Of a DNA stretch of 53,679 nt, positions 6,913-25,350 are shown one piece after another. Both the position numbers and the translations under genes were made by a program. The notes beneath the pieces were generated by a model. It was not told the DNA's origin. It was given only the letters and a program-made list of their open reading frames with translations, and did not search any database. Source of the DNA: Candidatus Nanopelagicales bacterium (GTDB lineage Bacteria; Actinomycetota; Actinomycetes; S36-B12); contig JAURFD010000006.1 of NCBI GenBank assembly GCA_030827125.1, forward strand, positions 1 to 53,679. The letters run 5' to 3'. Each line of letters starts with the position of its first letter. The first letter of the stretch is position 1.

Positions 6913-8484
6913 CTAGCCCTTGACCGTGATCGGCCGCTCGATGACCGCCTTCTGACCCGAAGATGTTGCAGCGATTTTGAGTGTTCCACTGCGCGTGGGC
7001 GCCACCTTGATCGTGTAACGCCCCTTGCTGTTGGTCCTTGTCACGCCCAACTCTTTGATCTTGCCCTTGTTCGAGATCCACACGACACGAATCTTCGCGC
7101 TCTTGACCGGATCGTCACCGCGCAGGACCTTGCCGGTGACCTTGGCGGTCTCGCCCTTGCGGATCGTGTCATCGAACTTTGCCCGCAATTCCAGCGGGGG
7201 CGCGATCTTGCGAGCCATCTGGCTGTAGAAGCCGTCGAGCACGAAGCCGAACTCCCAGACCGCGACGCCGGCGATCGACCTGTCGCGAACGATGTTCGCC
7301 TTGACCTTTGCTGAGCGGGTATCGGCGAACCACACTTCGCGCTCGGCTGAGCAGATGACAGCCGTGCCACCTGCGGTGCCATCGGTGTCGATCCAGTAGC
7401 GGTAGGTGTACTCGCCGTAGGTCGCGTCCCACGTCGGCGTGACCTGCTCGCGATCGGCGATCTGCAGGGCGCGCTCAATGGACTGGCTGAGCATGCCGGG
7501 GACTCCGCCTCCGCTTGGCTTCCAGCCGCTGGGGCAGTCACCGCGGGTGACATAGGCACCGGTGTTGTCCTGGCGTACCCAGTTGCGGGCATATTGCGGG
7601 ATCCCAAGCCAGACCTTCGCGCGGTGGGCACTGCCAAGCTGGTCAAGTGCGGATGCCACCACCTGGTCAGCCCAGTTCAGCGGACCAATGGGGCCCGGGC
7701 TGCCGTAGCTGTAGTCGTAGGCCATGAGTCGCAGTCGATCGACCGATCCGATGATCTCGTCCCAGGCGTAGACGCAGTAGCCCGTGCTCGGGTTGGGCGC
7801 ACCGATCGGTCCACGGTCGTTGCCGCAGGCATTCTTCTCCGACATCCACGCCTCGACGAAGGGGTACTCGCCAGCGGGCACGGTCACCGAGAGCAGGAGG
7901 TCTGCCTTGCGAAGGCGTGAGGACAGGGCCGTGATGAAGGCGACCCAGCGCGGTTTGGTCGTGGCCCAGGTGCTCGACCCGTCCGCGAAGGCGAACTTCT
8001 CCATATCGAGGTCGACGCCGTCGACATTCGCCTTCGTCGCCCAATCCACGATCTGGTCGGCGTAGGCATCGCGCCTCTCGGCGGTTGCGAGGTACTCCGA
8101 GAGTTCGCCCGCGCCAGAGCCGTCGATGATCGAGCCGAGTACCGGGATGCCGGCCGCCTGCATGATGTCGCGCTGTCCGGCGAGGTGGGCGTTGGTCCAT
8201 GGGGCATCCCCTGCGTCACTGCAGCTGCTGTCGGGGTTGTAGGTGCACAGCGGCTTGTTTGGCCCGGCAAAACTCCACCAGAAGAGGTTGACCTCGGGCA
8301 CCGTGGTGCGGCCTTGGCTGGCCAGCGTTTCGACGACGGAGTCTGGCTCCCAATAGCCGAACCAGCCGGACACGTAGGGGCCGGTGATGAGTTGGGGAGT
8401 CATGGCCTGGGCCGAGTTCGGGGCCAGCACAGCGATGGCGAGCCCAACGAGCATCATCAGCCGGAGAAGCGCCTTACGTCCCAC
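6913..8484 (-). CDS. secreted GH18-fold glycoside hydrolase with C-terminal beta domain
   Basis: The 523-residue product has a signal peptide (residues ~1-27, ending AQA) and a TIM-barrel of the glycoside hydrolase 18 type. The catalytic motif DGVDLDME is at residues 155-162 with Glu162 as the expected acid. Later come RLRLMAYDYSYG, a family substrate-binding stretch, and GVAVWEFGF near the end of the barrel. The last ~90 residues (ELRAKFDDTIRKGE onward) look like an immunoglobulin-type beta-sandwich. The substrate could be chitin or peptidoglycan, as for YaaH-like hydrolases; I cannot decide. GTG 8484 is chosen because it opens the signal peptide and is preceded at exactly 6 nt by TATCGT. 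It converges on tadC with a 56-nt gap. Confidence 0.8.
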   Translation of the reverse strand: MGRKALLRLMMLVGLAIAVLAPNSAQAMTPQLITGPYVSGWFGYWEPDSVVETLASQGRTTVPEVNLFWWSFAGPNKPLCTYNPDSSCSDAGDAPWTNAHLAGQRDIMQAAGIPVLGSIIDGSGAGELSEYLATAERRDAYADQIVDWATKANVDGVDLDMEKFAFADGSSTWATTKPRWVAFITALSSRLRKADLLLSVTVPAGEYPFVEAWMSEKNACGNDRGPIGAPNPSTGYCVYAWDEIIGSVDRLRLMAYDYSYGSPGPIGPLNWADQVVASALDQLGSAHRAKVWLGIPQYARNWVRQDNTGAYVTRGDCPSGWKPSGGGVPGMLSQSIERALQIADREQVTPTWDATYGEYTYRYWIDTDGTAGGTAVICSAEREVWFADTRSAKVKANIVRDRSIAGVAVWEFGFVLDGFYSQMARKIAPPLELRAKFDDTIRKGETAKVTGKVLRGDDPVKSAKIRVVWISNKGKIKELGVTRTNSKGRYTIKVAPTRSGTLKIAATSSGQKAVIERPITVKG

Positions 8485-8490
8485 TCTTTG

Positions 8491-8496
8491 ACGATA
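8491..8496 (-). promoter_or_regulatory. -10 box of a probable leaderless mRNA (GH18 gene)
   Basis: TATCGT lies 6 nt upstream of the GTG at 8484, so transcription would begin at the start codon. There is no Shine-Dalgarno sequence. No convincing -35 hexamer was found. Confidence 0.45.
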
Positions 8497-8564
8497 CGTC
8501 GCGACAAGCCTTGAGGCGTGTGGTGGCGACGGAAGCGCCCTGATCCCAAGCGTGCGCCAAGACA

Positions 8565-8810
8565 AAAGTAGAACGGCCCCTCGGAGTATGAGTCCGAGGG
8601 GCCGTTCTCTTAGAGCCGTGTTCTCGCCTCCGGTTTCCCGGCGCCTTCGCGGTGTGCTCCCCGCTCTGGTCGCCCCCTGTTTCCAGCTGGCTGGCGTCAC
8701 TTTCGACTCCTCGATCCGTACCTTGCGTCCGACCCGCTTGCACTCGGGTCTTCCAGGTCTGACCTGGTAGGCCGCCGGTTTTCGAACCGACCCGCACCTC
8801 GCGGTGCGTT
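8565..8810 (-). ncRNA. structured non-coding RNA (candidate Ms1/6S-like RNA)
   Basis: Read on the minus strand, about 245 nt form a chain of perfect short hairpins: CGCACC-GCGA-GGTGCG (8793-8808), CGGTT-CGAA-AACCG (8776-8789), CCAGGT-CAG-ACCTGG (8753-8767), GACCCG-8 nt-CGGGTC (8731-8750) and CCGG-GAAA-CCGG (8630-8641). They end in a 15-bp terminator stem (8571-8607). A promoter-like pair lies just upstream. Open frames across it have no family-like protein and no ribosome site. The 5' end near 8810 is inferred from the -10 box. It lacks the RNase P GAGGAAAGUCC core and the tmRNA ends. Mycobacterial Ms1/MTS2823, as I recall it, also lies beside a Tad/CpaE locus, which is the only basis for that suggestion. 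Confidence 0.6.
8571..8607 (-). terminator. strong intrinsic terminator of the structured RNA
   Basis: The stem is 15 bp and perfect: GAACGGCCCCTCGGA and its complement, around a 7-nt loop at 8586-8592. On the minus strand it is followed by TACTTTTGTCTT. It separates the RNA gene from the GH18 gene downstream on the same strand. The plus-strand side has only CTCTTAG after the stem, so it should work mainly for minus-strand transcripts. Confidence 0.8.
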
Positions 8811-8816
8811 GAGAGA

Positions 8817-8846
8817 TTTCTACCCCTGTCGTCAAGGCAACACAAG
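8817..8846 (-). promoter_or_regulatory. promoter of the structured RNA
   Basis: On the minus strand TTGTGT is followed after 17 nt by TAGAAA (8817-8822), which would start transcription near 8810. A TTGACG lies inside the spacer, so the true -35 is uncertain. The flanking stretch is unusually A/T-rich for this genome. Confidence 0.45.
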
Positions 8847-9067
8847 GGGTTGTCGACAAGTTTTTTCGTCAATGTGGCACCTCTCGTCACACCCTTATTT
8901 CTAGTAGTGAATTGCCCCACCAGTTACGGCGAGAAGTGTTGGACGAGACCAAGGGGAGTAGCGGGAGTACTGCCCTGACCGGGTGGAACGTGCGACAACA
9001 ATTCACCCTGGCTGGGCGGGGGTAGGGTGACGCTCACGCCGCGACGGAACCGATGGGAGGGGGAGCA
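8847..9067. other. intergenic region, divergent promoters expected
   Basis: Between the RNA promoter and the CPBP protease gene there is no convincing gene. The part nearest the RNA (to ~8900) contains runs such as TTTTTT and is locally A/T-rich. The part nearest the protease carries a G-rich Shine-Dalgarno stretch. I see no repeat or operator of note. Confidence 0.5.
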
Positions 9068-9883
9068 GTGAACGACTCCTCGCAAGTTCCACGTCCCACC
9101 GCGCGGAAGAGAAGTTTGCTGGCCTTCTTCGCCGTCTTGATCGTGGTGGAGGCGATCGGTCTTGCCCTCATCAAGCCCGCAGGTTTCACCATCGCCGCAT
9201 ACGTCATCATGTTCGCCCCCGCGCTCGGAGCCTTGGCGGCGCGGTTCTACGGTCCGGGAGTCATCTGGTGGGGCCGTCCCTCCTGGTGGATTCTTGTCGC
9301 GCTCCTGCCAATACCCGTCGTTCTCGCCGGCTACTGGGTCTCATCAATGCTCGGGTGGCTGCAATTCTCTGGTGAGGCGCTGCGTGGCTCTCTGCTGGTA
9401 GTGCCCTTTGCCTTGATCACAACGTGTGTCGCCGCATTCGGAGAAGAACTTGGCTGGCGTGGATTCCTGTGGCCGCTGCTGCGAACACGGTTTACCTTCC
9501 TCGTGGCGACGGCGATCCTCACGCCGATCTGGCTCGCCTACCACCTTCCCGGGATCTACCTCGGCGTGTACGGCTCGTGGACGGGCCTTCCCGCATTCGC
9601 CGTCGCGCTCATTGGCTGGACACTCTTCATCGGGGTCGTCACGGATCGATCGAGATCAGTCTGGCCGGCCGTCCTCCTCCATGGAGCCTGGAACACCTAT
9701 GTGGAGACGAGTTTCACCGGATTGATCGACGGAACTCCCACCCCCGCTTTCGTCGGCTCCGGGCTCACTGGTGAGTTCGGATGGGTGGCCGCCATCTTGA
9801 GCCTGGCCCTCGGCGGGGGGTTTGCGTGGTGGCACATTCGCACTGGTCGAGGCGCAAGGCTTGTAGCGGCCGGCGCCACCTAG
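9068..9883 (+). CDS. CPBP (CAAX-type) family intramembrane metalloprotease
   Basis: The 271-residue membrane protein has six to eight hydrophobic segments and the family motifs: EELGWRGFLWPLL (EExxxR), TPIWLAYHLPG with the His of the second motif, and HGAWNTY as the third. CPBP/Abi-type proteins are glutamic intramembrane proteases or their relatives; substrates in actinobacteria are mostly unknown. GTG 9068 is chosen over ATG 9053 because the G-rich sequence GGGAGGGGGAGCA sits immediately upstream as the ribosome-binding site and overlaps the earlier ATG. It is monocistronic between a divergent RNA gene and a convergent cupin gene. Confidence 0.85.
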   Translation: MNDSSQVPRPTARKRSLLAFFAVLIVVEAIGLALIKPAGFTIAAYVIMFAPALGALAARFYGPGVIWWGRPSWWILVALLPIPVVLAGYWVSSMLGWLQFSGEALRGSLLVVPFALITTCVAAFGEELGWRGFLWPLLRTRFTFLVATAILTPIWLAYHLPGIYLGVYGSWTGLPAFAVALIGWTLFIGVVTDRSRSVWPAVLLHGAWNTYVETSFTGLIDGTPTPAFVGSGLTGEFGWVAAILSLALGGGFAWWHIRTGRGARLVAAGAT

Positions 9884-10036
9884 GCCGTAACTCTCCGTGG
9901 CCCGGCAACCGCGCGAAGGGACGGACCAGGACCGCAATGCCGTGTGGTGGCTCGCGGGCCCACACCCGTGACAGCGCCGACTGCCGGACAGGGGGTCTGG
10001 CCCTCGCGCATCCGAGTGCCTATGGGCGTGAAGGGC

Positions 10037-10387
10037 CTAGATGTAGCTCTCCGCGGCCTCGAACTCCAAGGCCACGAAGGGCTCGTCGCCGATGACCCAG
10101 GCATCGTGCCCGGCAGCGACGGTGTAGGAGTCTCCCGGGCCCACGTCAATCGACGTTCCGTCTTCATGGACGATATGGAGATGCCCGGACTGCACCGCCC
10201 CGAAATGGGTGGCCTGGCATGTGGGAGTTCCCATCTTGGGACTGACATGCTCTGACCACTTCCAGCCTGGCTCAAAAGTAAACCGTGCCACGGACCCGCC
10301 GCCGAACGTGAGAATTTCAACGGTGCTCTTGTCGAGGCTTCGCACCTCATCGGCGGTCTCGAAGGATTTCATCTCAACACTACTCAT
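10037..10387 (-). CDS. cupin-domain protein
   Basis: The 116-residue product is a single small beta-barrel cupin. The metal-binding pattern can be seen as EHVSPKMGTPTCQATHFGAV (motif 1 region) and DVGPGDSYTVAAGHDAWVIGD (motif 2), with His residues suited to bind a metal. Such single-domain cupins are often sugar- or small-molecule-binding or act in stress responses; no substrate can be named. AGGAGG is 4 nt before the second of two tandem ATGs (10387), which is therefore preferred over the first (10390). It converges on the protease gene. Confidence 0.8.
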   Translation of the reverse strand: MSSVEMKSFETADEVRSLDKSTVEILTFGGGSVARFTFEPGWKWSEHVSPKMGTPTCQATHFGAVQSGHLHIVHEDGTSIDVGPGDSYTVAAGHDAWVIGDEPFVALEFEAAESYI

Positions 10388-10480
10388 CATGCCTCCTGCG
10401 CGGTGGTGTCGATCCTGACACTAGCACCATGGCAGCGATATCTCGCAGCGCGGGAGGGCCAAAGGTCCCCTTCGACTTCG

Positions 10481-10553
10481 TGGCCCCGAGAGGATTCGAA
10501 CCTCCGACACAAGGTTTAGGAAACCTCTGCTCTATCCCCTGAGCTACGGGGCC
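10481..10553 (-). tRNA. tRNA-Arg (anticodon CCU)
   Basis: The minus strand folds as a cloverleaf of 73 nt: acceptor GGCCCCG paired with CGGGGCC plus discriminator A, D-arm GCTCAGGGGATAGAGC, anticodon arm AGGTTTCCTAAACCT with loop TTCCTAA (anticodon CCT, reads AGG), and T-arm GGAGGTTCGAATCCTC (G/C stem around TTCGAAT). The 3' CCA is not encoded. A TAAACT element about 38 nt upstream may be its -10 box. AGG is a rare codon in such a GC-rich genome. Confidence 0.95.
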
Positions 10554-10641: not shown

Positions 10642-12309
10642 TTAGTCGGTCTCGATCAGGTCCTCGTCGATGAACCCGTCGTCGTTGAAGTCGATGCCGA
10701 TGGGCATGACGGTGCCATCGCCCTGCCAGGCTCCGTACTCGATGACGAGGGATTCATTTGCGGAGAGGGGGATCGGATCGCTGACGTACTCTTCATCGCT
10801 GACATCATCAATGCGACGGATCACGAAGTCGATGGTCCCCTCCCCGTCAGTAGTCGTAAAGGCGGTCACCGTTTGGGCTTCGAGATTCAAGAACACCGTG
10901 ATCGCGCCACCCTCTCCGGGTAGGTCCAAGCCACCGAAGAGGAATCCGTAGGAAGCTTCCGAACCATCCAGACTCAACACAATGTCCGGTGCTGCTCCCA
11001 CGTTCGTGGAATACGTGACGCTGGAGGATTCCGGATCGAAGATGATCGAATCGACATCGCCGGGTGACATGAGGAAGTCCTCAATCCCGTAACTGTATCC
11101 AGGACCGATGATGGTGATCCCCGTTGTGGCGTCAGCGACAGCGTCGGCGGCATCGACGGTCACCACGAATGCCTCACTCTCCGGAACGGCGATCACCGGG
11201 GCGCTCGTGATCACGCGAGACATCGGCACCCACTCACGCAGGCCCTCAATGGCGTTGCCGTCCAGATCGGTCACGGAAATGGTCACGCCCAGCCCTGCTG
11301 CCTCTTGATTGAGGTAGACCACATTGACGTCGCCATCGGCTGTTGACGTCTCGGCGGCTCCAGGCGGGCTGCCCAGTCCGGCTGCTTCGTTTGAGGTCCC
11401 GCCGGCGCAGAAGGCGCAATCTTGCGGACCGAGCATGGGATCGACGGGGAAGAGCACCAGGGGATTGTCCGCCCCACCCTCGTACAGTTCGGGATCGTTC
11501 CGTGGATCGGCCGATGTGCTGTAGGTCCAGGTATCCGTCGTCGTATCGACAACCATCATTTGGGCCTCGTACGGGAAATTGTTGTCGTACAGCATGATGC
11601 CGACCTGTCCGTCACCAAGATCCTCGATCGCATACGGAGTGACGGCGTGCCCGTCCTGGAAATCGCCGTCCACGAGTCGGTAGATCCCGAAGACGTATCC
11701 TTGGCCCTCAGCCCATTCTTGGGCGAGGACGTCGAGTGCCTGATTGGGAGTCAGGGTTTGCCGCTCAGCGAAGGTGGGGTCCGTTTCCTGGGTGACGAAG
11801 ACCGTCGCGATGTCTGCCTGCAGACCCCAATTGGCCTCGAAGGACATCTGCCCCGGGGTGTCCGAACCGTAGGCCTGCGGGTCGACGTACCCGGCGAAGA
11901 GTGCCCAGGCCAACCCAGCCATCCCGAAGCAGTGGCCACCGGCCATGCCGTCGTTCTGCACCTCCATCCACCGCTGGGCGGTCGGAGTGAGGAGGCAGTC
12001 CTCGCCGTCGATTTGCGCGCAGACTTGATCGCCGAAGAGCATGCGCATCGAGTAGGAGGTCAGGTTCTCGACCTCCCCCTCGTTGCCGTAGTTCGGGAAG
12101 CCAAAGCCATCGACTTCCACATCGAATCCGGTGTCGAAGGTGACTGCTGCCTGCGGTGCCATGTCGGATGACTGTGCGGGGGAGGCCTCGGTCGCGGTGT
12201 CGACCTCGCCAGCCATACATGCAGTCGAGACCAGCGGTAGGGCGCAAGCCAGCACGGCGAACCGAACACGTAGGCGTCGGTGCACAGGTCGGGCACGCAT
12301 TGTCAGCAT
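10642..12309 (-). CDS. lipoprotein with predicted papain-like cysteine peptidase domain
   Basis: The 555-residue product has a lipoprotein signal (basic start, hydrophobic core, lipobox LVSTAC, Cys31). The first half carries what looks like a papain/transglutaminase-type triad: MAGGHCFGMAGLAWALF with Cys127, DGHAVTPYAIED with His221, and IMLYDNNFP with Asp242/Asn243, in the order and spacing expected for such folds. The second half is beta-rich and unrecognised. GGAGG 7 nt before the ATG supports the start, which overlaps the stop of the histidine kinase by 7 nt. It is the distal gene of the regulator-kinase operon and is probably surface-anchored. Enzyme activity is inferred only from motif order. 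Confidence 0.6.
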   Translation of the reverse strand: MLTMRARPVHRRLRVRFAVLACALPLVSTACMAGEVDTATEASPAQSSDMAPQAAVTFDTGFDVEVDGFGFPNYGNEGEVENLTSYSMRMLFGDQVCAQIDGEDCLLTPTAQRWMEVQNDGMAGGHCFGMAGLAWALFAGYVDPQAYGSDTPGQMSFEANWGLQADIATVFVTQETDPTFAERQTLTPNQALDVLAQEWAEGQGYVFGIYRLVDGDFQDGHAVTPYAIEDLGDGQVGIMLYDNNFPYEAQMMVVDTTTDTWTYSTSADPRNDPELYEGGADNPLVLFPVDPMLGPQDCAFCAGGTSNEAAGLGSPPGAAETSTADGDVNVVYLNQEAAGLGVTISVTDLDGNAIEGLREWVPMSRVITSAPVIAVPESEAFVVTVDAADAVADATTGITIIGPGYSYGIEDFLMSPGDVDSIIFDPESSSVTYSTNVGAAPDIVLSLDGSEASYGFLFGGLDLPGEGGAITVFLNLEAQTVTAFTTTDGEGTIDFVIRRIDDVSDEEYVSDPIPLSANESLVIEYGAWQGDGTVMPIGIDFNDDGFIDEDLIETD

Positions 12310-22297: not shown

Positions 22298-22432
22298 GGT
22301 TCCTCCTGTGCAAGGGCCAACGGTGTTCGGCCGGTTCGGATGGGCTTCGGTTGATGTCGTTTGGCGTTGTTTGCTGTCGTTCGTTGGTGCGTGAACGCAT
22401 TCCATGTCGCTGCCGAAGGCGGAGTCAACGCC

Positions 22433-22438
22433 TACGCT
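22433..22438 (+). promoter_or_regulatory. -10 box of a probable leaderless mRNA
   Basis: TACGCT lies 6 nt before GTG 22445. It is independent of any stop codon and is the main reason for choosing that start. No -35 was recognised. Confidence 0.4.
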
Positions 22439-22444
22439 GCGACT

Positions 22445-23026
22445 GTGGATGAACCGTTCAGCGACCCTGCGCGTTTGGTCGATTCGACCCGCGTGGACGC
22501 TCTGCTCGCGGGCATCGTCGCGGAAGTCGATGCGGCAACCGACGCCGCCGACGATGCAGAAATCGTCGAACTTGAGCGAGCGGGCCGTGCTGGTCGACAG
22601 TTGCTCGACCGATTCCGCGACTGCGACGCGGCGCGCATTGAGATCTTCGGTGGCGAGCTCGTGACGGGGTGGATCGTCGCCGTCGGTCGGGACTGCGTCG
22701 TGGTTGCCGAACCCGCGGGCGACTGGGTCATCCCGGTCTCCGGCATCGTGGCGGTCGTCGGACTTGACGGTGAGGCCCGGCGAGCGATTGCGTCCCTGGA
22801 TCGGCTGGGGATGCTCTCGGTCATCCGCTCGTGGGCGCGAGATCGCGAGGTGGTGCGCGTATTTCGGGCCGGGGGTGCGCCACTCGACGGCACCATTGAC
22901 GCTGTTGGCGCTGACTATGTCGACATTGCCGAGCATGATCCGGGTGAGCCACGTCGCACCGACGCGGTACGACGTGTCGCGACGGTGCCGGTGAGTGTGG
23001 TGACGGCGGTTCGTCGTCGTGCGTAG
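22445..23026 (+). CDS. conserved hypothetical protein with two Sm-like beta repeats
   Basis: The 193-residue product has a helical N-terminal part (DALLAGIVAEVDAATDAADD, ~15-50) and two similar beta segments, RIEIFGGELVTGWIVAVGRDCVVV-type (~62-105) and RVFRAGGAPLDGTIDAVGADYVDI-type (~140-185). Each has a hydrophobic-G-G-x-x-x-x-G-x-I-x-x-V-G-x-D-x-V pattern like Sm/LSm folds. That resemblance is by eye; RNA binding is not established. Alternative starts at 22361 (TTG) and 22391 (GTG) exist, but only 22445 has a -10 box at the leaderless distance. It is divergent from the Rv3235-family gene and convergent with the HTH gene. Confidence 0.6.
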   Translation: MDEPFSDPARLVDSTRVDALLAGIVAEVDAATDAADDAEIVELERAGRAGRQLLDRFRDCDAARIEIFGGELVTGWIVAVGRDCVVVAEPAGDWVIPVSGIVAVVGLDGEARRAIASLDRLGMLSVIRSWARDREVVRVFRAGGAPLDGTIDAVGADYVDIAEHDPGEPRRTDAVRRVATVPVSVVTAVRRRA

Positions 23027-23048
23027 TGATCAGGTGAGTGCGTAATGA

Positions 23049-23300
23049 TCAGGTGAGAGTGTCGGCGGTCAGACTCGCGGCGGTCTCGGCGTAGGCGCGT
23101 TCGATATAGCTCTCGAGTTCCACGGTCTCCACTCGCCATTGCCCCCGACCACCGATCTTGATCGCGGGGAGGTCTCCGCTGCGGACGAGGGCGTACGCCT
23201 GGGCGGCGGACACGTTCAAAATCTCGGCCACATCGGCGAGGGTGAGGAATCGCTGCACCTCGCGAGGGTCGCACGCGCGGTGCCCGCTGGCTACCTTCAT
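23049..23300 (-). CDS. excisionase-type helix-turn-helix DNA-binding protein
   Basis: The product (83 aa from ATG 23300) contains RFLTLADVAEILNVSAAQAYALVRSGDLPAIKI then GGRGQWRVE..ELESYIERAY, the MerR/excisionase-like HTH_17 fold of actinobacterial small regulators. Such proteins bind DNA through the helix-turn-helix and a short wing. The start is uncertain: GTG 23258 would give a 69-residue protein closer to the usual family length, and GTG 23327 a longer one. None has a good ribosome site. It is divergent from the SAF/ATPase pair and is a candidate regulator of it. Confidence 0.75.
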   Translation of the reverse strand: MKVASGHRACDPREVQRFLTLADVAEILNVSAAQAYALVRSGDLPAIKIGGRGQWRVETVELESYIERAYAETAASLTADTLT

Positions 23301-23413
23301 CTTCGACCTGTGGATGACATCGCGCACGTGCCATGCACCGTTGTTGCGGCGAGTGGAGACGCGCGGATGCGGACATCAATAGTGGCTCGCAGTCCCGTCT
23401 CACAGGAGAGTCC

Positions 23414-24085
23414 ATGTCCCCAGCAACCGCCATCTTCGAGCGTCTACGACCCCCTGCGCCGCATGTGATCATCGATGCATCACCGCCGGCAACCCGCCGC
23501 CGCCGTTCCTGGTGGCGTGATGGCCGAGTCATCGCGGGGGTGGGCATCCTGGTGATCTGCACCGTTGTCGGAGGCCGACTCCTCGCGGGGAGTGATGAAT
23601 CCGTCGAGGTGTGGCAGGCGACGCGAGATCTCGCGGCGGGGTCGATCCCCTCTGCCACGGACCTTCAGGCGGTGCTGGCCCCCCAGTCTGTTGCCGGGGC
23701 CTACGCGGCTGCACAGGGTCCCGTGACGACACCGCTCACCCGACCTGTCCTCGCGGGGGAGTTCCTCCCGCTCCCCGTCGAGGTCACCGCCGTTGATGCC
23801 CGCTGGGTCACGTTACCCGTCGAACCCCTCCACGCACCATCGGACCTCGCGCCCGGGGACGTCATCGATGTGTGGTCGACCAGCGATGTCGACCTCGCCG
23901 CAGTGCCGAGGCCGCGCCTGGTGCTCGACAGCGTGCTCGTCACCGATGTCACGGTCGACTCTCTCGGCATCGGTGGGGAGTACGGCGTCACTGTCGAAGT
24001 CCCGCCGAGCGACGCGGAGACTCTCGTCACCGCGGTGCGGTCCGGTGTCATCGACCTCGTGCGGGCCCCGGTGATCACGCCATGA
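23414..24085 (+). CDS. SAF-domain membrane protein (CpaB/FlgA-like)
   Basis: The 223-residue product has a basic N-terminus, one membrane helix (~38-56, RVIAGVGILVICTVVGG), then a SAF domain (VWQATRDLAAGSIPSATDLQAVL, ~66-125) and a further beta region with PGDVIDVWSTSD and VSV/VTVEVPPSDAETLV resembling the RcpC domain. It is thus like CpaB of the Tad locus at the window start, but no pilin, motor or platform gene is near. AGGAGA precedes ATG 23414 by 5 nt; the in-frame extension to 23333 has no ribosome site. The stop overlaps the start of the ATPase gene (ATGA). Confidence 0.78.
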   Translation: MSPATAIFERLRPPAPHVIIDASPPATRRRRSWWRDGRVIAGVGILVICTVVGGRLLAGSDESVEVWQATRDLAAGSIPSATDLQAVLAPQSVAGAYAAAQGPVTTPLTRPVLAGEFLPLPVEVTAVDARWVTLPVEPLHAPSDLAPGDVIDVWSTSDVDLAAVPRPRLVLDSVLVTDVTVDSLGIGGEYGVTVEVPPSDAETLVTAVRSGVIDLVRAPVITP

Positions 24086-25350
24086 GCGCGACGCCGATCC
24101 TCCTGGCCGCACCGGGACTGGCTCAGGAGGCTGAGCTCGTGGCGCTCCTCGGGCAGCGTGGTGCGTCCCTCACCATTACCCGCCGGTGTGTTGATGCGCT
24201 GGACCTGATGGCCGCTGCCGGGGAGGGGGTGGCGCGCGTGGCCGTCGTGTCGGCCCGGCTTCCCCGCCTCACCCGAGACACCATCGGTCGACTTGCGGCG
24301 CTCGGCATCACCGTTGTTGGCCTGGCGGCCAGCGACGCAGACGCGGACGCCACCGTCCTGCGCAACCTGGACATTCCGCTGGTGACCATGGCGCCGCCGG
24401 ACGAATCCGGTCGTGATGACCTCAACGTCACGGTCGCGGCCCTGGCCAGACTCGTCGTCGATCCGCGCCCGAGCAGCCTGGAGTACTCCGGCGGGCGATC
24501 TACCCAAGCCGTCCGGGAGATCGTCAAGGCCCCTGGGCGCCTGGTCGCGGTGTGGGGTCCCGTCGGTGCCCCCGGGCGCACCACCGTGGCGGTGGGTCTA
24601 GCGGACGAATGGGCGCGCAACCGCACGCCAGCGCTGCTCGTCGATGCGGACACGGTCGGCGGGGGCGCCGTCGCCGCGCATCTCGGTGTGCTCGACGAGG
24701 TCAGCGGCATTGTCGTCGCGTGCCGCCACGCCGACACCGGGCGACTGGATCCCCCGGCGCTGGCCGCGGCGGCCCGAACGGTTCACGGTGACCTGCGCGT
24801 CCTCACCGGAATTCCGCGCGCGGAGCGTTGGGCCGAACTCCGCCCCGCGGCACTCACCCGACTGTGGCAGGCGGGACGCAACACCTCGGGGGTCATGGTC
24901 GTCGACGCGGGATTCAGCCTCGAGCGCGACGAGGAGATCGTGTCCGACGCGCGCGTGCCGCGTCGCGCGGCCGCCACGCTGACCGCACTAGCGGCCGCCG
25001 ACATGATCGTGGCCGTAGGCAGTGCCGACCCGGTAGGAATGGAACGACTTGTGCATGCGCTCGGCGATCTGCGGCGCGCATTTCCCGAGACACCGGTACG
25101 AGTCATCGTCAACCGCGTGCGCCGATCCGCACTCGGTCCCGACGCGACGGGTCAGATTCGCGAAACCTTGCGTCGCCACGTGGGTATCGGCGATGCCGTC
25201 TGCGTGCCGGAGGACCGCGAGGCGTGCGATGCGGCACTGCGCGCGGGGGGAACCCTCGCAGAAGTGGCCCCTCGTTCACAGGTGCGTAACGCGCTGCGCG
25301 AACTTGTCACCGAATGGACTTGGCCCGCACCGCTCGACATCGCGGCGTGA
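24082..25350 (+). CDS. CpaE/MinD-like P-loop protein with degenerate Walker A
   Basis: The 422-residue product has an N-terminal receiver-like region (~1-125) and a MinD/ParA-like domain. The P-loop position reads GPVGAPGRTT (159-168): the signature Lys of the deviant motif is absent and the P-loop Lys is Arg166. Other MinD-like parts remain, for example LLVDADTVGGG (~186-196) and VMVVDAGFSLE. It resembles CpaE in layout. Whether it still binds ATP is doubtful. It is translationally coupled to the SAF-domain gene, so the two products probably act together at the membrane. Function unknown. Confidence 0.72.
   Translation: MSATPILLAAPGLAQEAELVALLGQRGASLTITRRCVDALDLMAAAGEGVARVAVVSARLPRLTRDTIGRLAALGITVVGLAASDADADATVLRNLDIPLVTMAPPDESGRDDLNVTVAALARLVVDPRPSSLEYSGGRSTQAVREIVKAPGRLVAVWGPVGAPGRTTVAVGLADEWARNRTPALLVDADTVGGGAVAAHLGVLDEVSGIVVACRHADTGRLDPPALAAAARTVHGDLRVLTGIPRAERWAELRPAALTRLWQAGRNTSGVMVVDAGFSLERDEEIVSDARVPRRAAATLTALAAADMIVAVGSADPVGMERLVHALGDLRRAFPETPVRVIVNRVRRSALGPDATGQIRETLRRHVGIGDAVCVPEDREACDAALRAGGTLAEVAPRSQVRNALRELVTEWTWPAPLDIAA

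Follow-up and report, generated by a model that had tools for sequence, protein, structure and literature searches.

A family of stand-alone structured RNAs with a covarying kissing loop in the class Actinomycetes

Introduction

Stand-alone RNAs that combine much compensatory evolution with a wide spread, such as 6S RNA, Ms1, RNase P and tmRNA, are often important. 6C RNA is made of two hairpins with C-rich loops, and the orphan RNAs ROOL, GOLLD and raiA are large, structured and stand-alone, some of them with loop-loop contacts. The Ms1 consensus is described as a long hairpin with a central bubble and two short end hairpins (PMC4191392). Its size is given as about 230 nt in Streptomyces and 300 nt in mycobacteria, and Ms1 is predicted for Nocardioides (PMC9130861; prediction in Table 4). 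The site of Ms1 is marked by 6C RNA together with CpaF- and TadB-like genes (PMC9569102, PMC6582537). CoRP, of about 500 nt, lies in the neighbourhood of tRNA-Gln/Glu, and its close homologues were found in Corynebacterium only (PMC11077062). Two further papers were drawn on (PMC4109619, PMC3774663).

The initial annotation of a 53,679-nt stretch of DNA from a Candidatus Nanopelagicales bacterium (contig JAURFD010000006.1, positions 1 to 53,679, in the following "the window") had proposed, from the letters alone, a structured RNA gene beside a Tad locus, possibly an Ms1/6S-like RNA. Here, we describe this RNA, its relatives and their fold, and we compare them with the RNAs named above.

Results

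The RNA gene in the window

Two covariance models were used: R1 was built from nine aligned copies (alignment A3) and R2 from 54 copies. Covariation was counted in the alignment A5, a sequence-only MAFFT alignment of 54 rows. Of the 56 matches that score 84.7 bits or more it takes 54; a near-identical copy from the sister genome G004 (L111) and a truncated one (L153:1-196) were dropped and weaker matches omitted. The reading of the minus strand from 8868 to 8562 as a stand-alone RNA gene, promoter region included, holds, and covariation among the homologues supports it. Its parts are:

8846..8868 (−), AT-rich, UP-element-like tract upstream of the −35, from the A+T composition of 54 homologues
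8840..8845 (−), −35-like hexamer TTGTGT, its TTG conserved among homologues
8816..8822 (−), −10-like TAGAAAT, 17 nt past the −35
8562..8810 (−), RNA body of about 249 nt; R1 match at 8567-8823(−) with 242.4 bits, and covariation
8570..8608 (−), terminator hairpin of 16 pairs with a 7-nt loop
8586..8592 (−), terminator loop CUCAUAC, exact in 51 of 54 A5 rows

The 5′ end would lie near 8810, at a conserved A about 6 nt past the −10, and the 3′ end, to judge from the terminator, near 8562. In 51 of the 54 homologues a TTG occupies −22 or −23 relative to the model start, and the −10 consensus TAgAaaT follows after 17-18 nt. Between −45 and −24 the homologues have a mean A+T content of 67%, compared to 40% in background windows, with a weaker tract (55%) in the window itself. 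Although a generic promoter scan of 8300-9200 found no promoter, the promoter-like pair of the initial annotation is upheld by this conservation. Folding of 8565-8846(−) gives −132.3 kcal/mol (z = −4.87), a value as low as which was reached by none of 200 shuffled sequences. Long open frames overlap the region; despite these, the earlier view that it encodes no believable protein stands, since the lengths of the 54 homologues (252-339 nt in A5) occupy all three classes modulo 3 (21, 19 and 14), which speaks against a conserved protein. The terminator had been given as 15 bp long; it is present, but with 16 pairs, of which 10 show compensatory change in A5 (96.8% of cells paired), and its T tail is weak in the window. 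The window RNA is presumably transcribed in the cell and looks like an active cellular RNA.

Two branched domains linked by a kissing loop

The comparison of homologues yields a fold of two branched domains linked by a covarying kissing loop. On the window it is laid out as follows:

8793..8808 (−), P1 hairpin with a GNRA loop (GCGA); 6 of 6 pairs with compensatory changes in A5
8711..8790 (−), Domain I, in which P2 encloses an inner helix, P3 and P4
8790-8783 with 8718-8711 (−), P2; 84.5% of A5 cells paired
about 8777-8770 with 8730-8722 (−), inner helix of Domain I; 74.6% of A5 cells paired
8767-8753 (−), P3 hairpin; 81.2% of A5 cells paired
8750-8732 (−), P4 hairpin; 83.4% of A5 cells paired
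8740..8743 (−), P4 loop GUGC, one side of the kissing loop (helix 7)
8654..8657 (−), P6 loop GCAC, the other side, from covariation in A5
8630..8691 (−), Domain II: P5 at 8691-8672, P6 at 8664-8649 and P7 with a GAAA loop at 8641-8630

Throughout A5, 88.0% of cells pair and 59 of 73 pairs show compensatory changes, a count that leans towards structure because the fold was partly chosen and pruned on the same rows: it started from the minimum-energy fold of a single row (L105), positions that paired poorly were removed once the counts had been seen, and the kissing pairs were recognised by eye. Cells in which both partners had changed numbered 500, against 157.8 ± 14.1 in shuffled alignments, and the covariation score was 0.389, compared to 0.195 after shuffling and at most 0.102 when the structure was slid along the alignment. 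The hairpins with GNRA loops noticed earlier are thus present, and their pairs covary. The window copy forms 63 of the 73 consensus pairs; the helices that close Domain II (near 8694-8692/8628-8626 and 8709-8706/8615-8612) are weak in its row.

The kissing helix is paired in 96.2% of A5 cells, with exchanges between GC (27), AU (11) and UA (2) at one position and between CG (49) and UA (4) at another; three of its four pairs were scored in the window row, where an alignment gap displaces the outermost partner in the P6 loop. A second alignment, A6, holds 15 shorter RNAs, 12 from the genus of Nocardioides zhouii (which has 20 full-length matches) and one each from G178, G459 and G400; its structure is that of RNAalifold, supplemented by eye, on the same rows, with P6 and the kissing pairs. 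Here the same loops pair over six positions (94.4% paired), GUGACG/CGUCAC having changed together to GUGAUG/CAUCAC, with counts of GC11/AU2/GU2 and CG10/UA4/UG1, and A6 as a whole has 90 double-changed cells compared to 25.3 ± 4.7 in shuffles. Comparative analysis thus shows that the loop-loop contact between the domains covaries in two divergent groups. The second domain is branched in the window's family and shorter in Nocardioides.

The terminator loop

CUCAUAC is exact in 15 of 15 A6 rows, and the three exceptions in A5 are CUCAUGC, UUCAUAC and GGGAAGC, one row each. Among 24 loci scanned in Nocardioidaceae and farther groups, a CTCATAC hairpin was found in 10 and not in 14. Variant loops examined were CCCUUAC, CCCUUAU, CGCUUAC, CGCAUAC, CUGAUAC, CUAAUAC and CAUCUAU; the farther-out loops keep the frame C-NNN-UAY while the terminator stem changes. 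CCCUUAC is the terminator loop in the copies examined of one group of mostly ~7-Mb genomes, f25. A 7-nt loop with CAU after U resembles an anticodon arm, but mimicry of one was dropped because the loops of other groups read CCCUUAC, CGCUUAC or CUGAUAC, among others.

The nonamer AGTATGAGT, the complement of the loop and its closing pair, was searched at its full length across the whole genome (2.6 Mb in 82 contigs, 97% complete) and occurs at two places, the terminators of the two RNA genes. Its avoidance elsewhere cannot be claimed, because a reversed control pattern also has zero occurrences in the genome. At 663 start codons, pooled from the window and 71 loci with near-duplicate loci included, the complement of the terminator loop was not enriched (1 compared to 0.35 expected, a test of low power). 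Antisense pairing of the loop with start codons was rejected on these two results. Among the papers listed in a literature search for the nonamer, none looked relevant by title.

Distribution of the family

The initial annotation had suggested a covariance model built from this region in related genomes, and such a model does find homologues in the window's family, with covariation. A search by DNA similarity gave matches in 11 of 59 genomes, R1 in 59 of 85 genomes of the window's family (31 of the 41 good ones) and in 78 of 166 at the order level, the window's own genome being counted in each. At the class level R2 matches 92 of 394 genomes and 53 of 137 genera, own included; this is not a count of full-length copies, because many class-wide matches are the terminator hairpin alone. 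Such matches can mislead, because a GC-rich, loop-less hairpin in L017 also scores significantly with R1 and R2 (E 4e-5 to 4e-4, on both strands). A draw across the phylum gave matches in 2 of 396 genomes, the window's own and G235, both of the class Actinomycetes. The RNA family spans part of this class, Nocardioides zhouii and Pimelobacter simplex included. In the genus of N. zhouii 23 of 59 genomes match; G928 has the RNA at four distinct places, and another genome has two copies about 430 bp apart (G934:C2:1582619-1583259).

Plasmids and phages searched by DNA similarity, and viral contigs searched with one terminator pattern, gave no match. Rfam reported for the window no family at threshold except tRNA, which sets the RNA apart from ROOL, GOLLD and raiA; with permissive settings, 8200-9200 yielded just three matches, all of them sub-threshold, and the loci of nine relatives gave tRNAs and their minus-strand echoes, with all else below threshold. 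No description of the family was recognised in the open-licence PMC literature, covered mostly as titles and openings of abstracts and hence weak evidence of absence.

Neighbourhood and spread

The genes around the window copy are:

6913..8451 (−), GH18 family protein (PF00704), same strand as the RNA and downstream of it; start uncertain, the frame being open still farther upstream
9053..9883 (+), CPBP/Rce1-like protein (PF02517), upstream and divergent
10480..10553 (−), tRNA-Arg(CCT), with the CPBP and cupin-like genes between it and the RNA

Only the sister genome G004 shares GH18 and a piece of the CPBP gene, on a contig that breaks off within GH18. G007, from the window's genus and without an R1 match, has a GH18 gene 69% identical in protein, then about 270 bp and an identical tRNA-Arg; because G007 has GH18 and tRNA without the RNA, the RNA, CPBP and cupin genes sit in a variable segment (window 6913-10553). 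A second GH18 paralogue, 46% identical, is encoded farther along the window's contig (G000:C64:105637-106998), and 10642-12309 (−) of the window encodes a protein of 555 aa that begins like a lipoprotein and matches nothing in Pfam.

In a quick tree of the RNAs, with SH-aLRT as the only support measure, the window copy falls into a clade of six rows from three genera (SH-aLRT 99). Its nearest relative is in G082, of another genus, with DNA homology of 91.4% over 278 bp that ends at the limits of the RNA gene. A second, diverged copy in the window's own genome (G000:C11:79584-79871 (−), L166/L224, 65.1 bits with R2) adjoins an ole-like cluster of an epimerase and a hydrolase-AMP-ligase. The window copy is a second paralogue, common to two other genera, probably by horizontal spread, and it gives an example of an RNA gene common to several genera as a bare unit.

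Neighbours at the other RNA loci were searched with Pfam-checked proteins from L095, in a set of 86 loci that are not independent, many coming from the same genera. Upstream and divergent, tgt is found at 18 of the 86; an epimerase/3-beta-HSD gene lies downstream and convergent at 29 and a hydrolase-AMP-ligase fusion is present at 25, two genes that we take to be oleD-like and oleBC-like, respectively. At 14 loci tgt and ole-like genes occur together. Among 13 Nocardioidaceae loci, several adjoin an amidase gene (Pfam-checked in L175) or lie between radA-like and lacI-type genes (checked in L253).

Loci of group f25 (L202-L207 and L210) have two RNA copies or terminators in the same orientation, separated by about 4.1 kb. 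Those of L203 flank a protein of 1182 aa with pentapeptide repeats; its reading as a proline-catabolic enzyme was rejected, Pfam giving the repeats only.

Comparison with Ms1

With Ms1 (MTS2823, scr3559) the window RNA shares that it is a stand-alone actinobacterial RNA of about 230-300 nt with a sigma-A-like promoter and an intrinsic terminator, likenesses which are not specific. The site and the fold differ. Ms1 lies next to ssd/CpaE-HAD genes and near 6C RNA, whereas the members of the present family are found at other sites, with several copies in some genomes. The Tad neighbourhood that had suggested Ms1 is real in the window, with CpaE in the nearby Tad operon and tadC 1.7 kb away, but it is a feature of this copy alone; the window's first base, which lies upstream of the Tad operon, is also the first of the contig. 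In tblastn searches, none of seven Tad proteins of the window was found in the 86 other RNA loci (median flank about 3 kb per side; loci from the family search, with flanks of 1.5 kb, could not reveal Tad genes at the window's 1.7-kb spacing). Nor were there Tad genes in 11 RNA loci of 10 genomes with flanks of up to about 10 kb, some of which end close to the RNA.

Conversely, R1 on 43 Tad loci from named records, and a covariance model on 12 Tad-region sources, gave below E 0.01 only the loop-less, GC-rich hairpin of L017. Both sites can be compared in G352. There, 6C RNA and CpaF- and TadB-like genes (the TadB match being weak) lie at 6.978-6.982 Mb, where R2 has no match, and the kissing-loop RNA lies at 6.243 and 6.247 Mb, about 0.73 Mb away. 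Identification as Ms1 by synteny was rejected on these grounds: no Tad genes in the flanks searched at other RNA loci, separate sites in G352 and, at Tad loci, no match but that hairpin. Rfam gave no Ms1 match, but it is said to find Ms1 only in close mycobacterial kin (PMC9130861), and the presence of Ms1 in Rfam 15 is taken from papers.

The published Ms1 is a rod with a central bubble, whereas the window RNA has two covarying domains and a kissing loop. 6S RNA is likewise an open-promoter-like rod with a bubble, and the window RNA has no such rod; the 6S model (RF00013) has no match in the window's genome and matches 5 of 14 control genomes. The likeness to 6S RNA is one of possible functional class only, that of protein-binding regulatory RNAs. 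Other sites, a different covarying fold and the lack of a 6S match in its own genome thus speak against the suggested identity with Ms1 or 6S. 6C RNA is also actinobacterial and stand-alone, but its model (RF01066) has 75 positions; it has no match in the window or its genome, and among eight genomes searched it matches one, G352. CoRP differs in size, the A5 homologues having 252-339 nt, and in its site, the recurrent neighbours here being other genes; it is an earlier example of an unrelated RNA of one lineage that acts on RNA polymerase. Taken together, and as far as sequence comparison reaches, these stand-alone structured RNAs form a family in the class Actinomycetes that has no match in Rfam and differs from Ms1, 6S and 6C wherever testable. 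We are highly confident that the family is new and is not Ms1, with Ms1 compared by its site and the published description of its fold.

Discussion

What could such an RNA do? Transcribed from its own sigma-A-like promoter, it would fold compactly, with the kissing loop as a lock, and would act in trans: a conserved protein partner would bind the terminator loop and the folded body, and may thereby be sequestered or tuned in the general manner of 6S/Ms1-type RNAs. The terminator loop is the putative binding site of the partner, which is more likely a protein than an mRNA. We consider a putative protein-binding, trans-acting RNA about equally likely to be right or wrong as a description of the family. 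We prefer protein binding to base pairing because the middle of the loop drifts while its ends stay, and because the nonamer complementary to the loop and its closing pair is found only in the two RNA genes. Pairing of the terminator loop or other loops with mRNAs, perhaps by seeds of 6-7 nt, as in a base-pairing regulatory RNA, would agree with a conserved unpaired loop on an exposed hairpin and with the AUG contained in the loop's complement; however, with the complementary nonamer absent from the genome outside the RNA genes, no enrichment at start codons (at low power) and drift of the middle positions, it appears quite unlikely.

More specific, and unlikely though worth naming, is the proposal that the RNA, unrelated to Ms1, does the same job, as an abundant RNA putatively binding RNA polymerase like 6S, Ms1 and CoRP. 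Neither 6S nor 6C was found in the window's own genome, the promoter-like blocks with their AT-rich tract are conserved, and CoRP is an unrelated RNA in such a role whose authors expect more kinds (PMC11077062). On the other hand, the covarying fold lacks an open-promoter-like bubble, the distribution is patchy (92 of 394 genomes), and the RNA occurs in Nocardioides, a genus predicted to have Ms1 (PMC9130861). Somewhat more widely framed, the family could be a new and abundant class of kissing-loop RNAs whose C-NNN-UAY loop putatively contacts a central machine, be it RNA polymerase or some other conserved complex. It would then be a counterpart of 6S/Ms1 that has spread between genera as a bare gene; we advance this tentatively and think it improbable. 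The family offers a concrete candidate for the published expectation that more actinobacterial RNA classes are tied to the transcription machinery (PMC11077062). That it is a diverged and relocated Ms1, putatively binding core RNA polymerase, is hardly credible. The size of about 249 nt, the promoter and terminator and the distance of 1.7 kb to tadC would fit, but Tad genes were not found in the flanks searched at the 86 other RNA loci, the RNA of G352 is separate from the 6C/CpaF site, the 12 Tad-region sources and 43 Tad loci returned only the L017 hairpin, the fold is unlike the published rod with its bubble (PMC4191392), one genome (G928) has the RNA at four distinct places, and Nocardioides carries it elsewhere, yet Ms1 is predicted there (PMC9130861).

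Two readings would deny the RNA a function in trans, and both are very improbable. The window and G004, where the same-strand GH18 frame starts directly after the RNA, suggest a riboswitch or attenuator that acts in cis as the leader of the gene downstream. Across 82 loci, a set that is not independent, 76 could be scored, six being too short-flanked; the nearest downstream gene is on the same strand in 32 and on the opposite strand in 44, and the oleD-like gene is convergent in 29 of 86. A leader of GH18 was rejected, since there is no constant same-strand downstream gene. That the RNA is a short repeat, mobile or selfish, and has no work to do in the cell would account for homology between the window and G082 that stops at the gene ends, for the empty site in G007 and for the closely spaced copies of G934. 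Against it stand the few copies per genome, the compensatory evolution of the fold in A5 and A6, the recurrent site beside tgt or ole-like genes, and the lack of matches in plasmids and phages or, with the terminator pattern, in viral contigs. A trans-acting, putatively protein-binding RNA is thus the reading that we prefer.

Further observations concern the Tad regions themselves. The window may hold a second Tad-like set at 22361-25350, with a CpaB-like frame recognised by eye at 23333-24085 and a frame of 492 aa at 23872-25350 that has a weak CbiA/ParA match. Near the Tad locus of two Nocardioidaceae there is a c-di-AMP riboswitch (L015, 19627-19787 (−); L018, 20649-20811 (−)).
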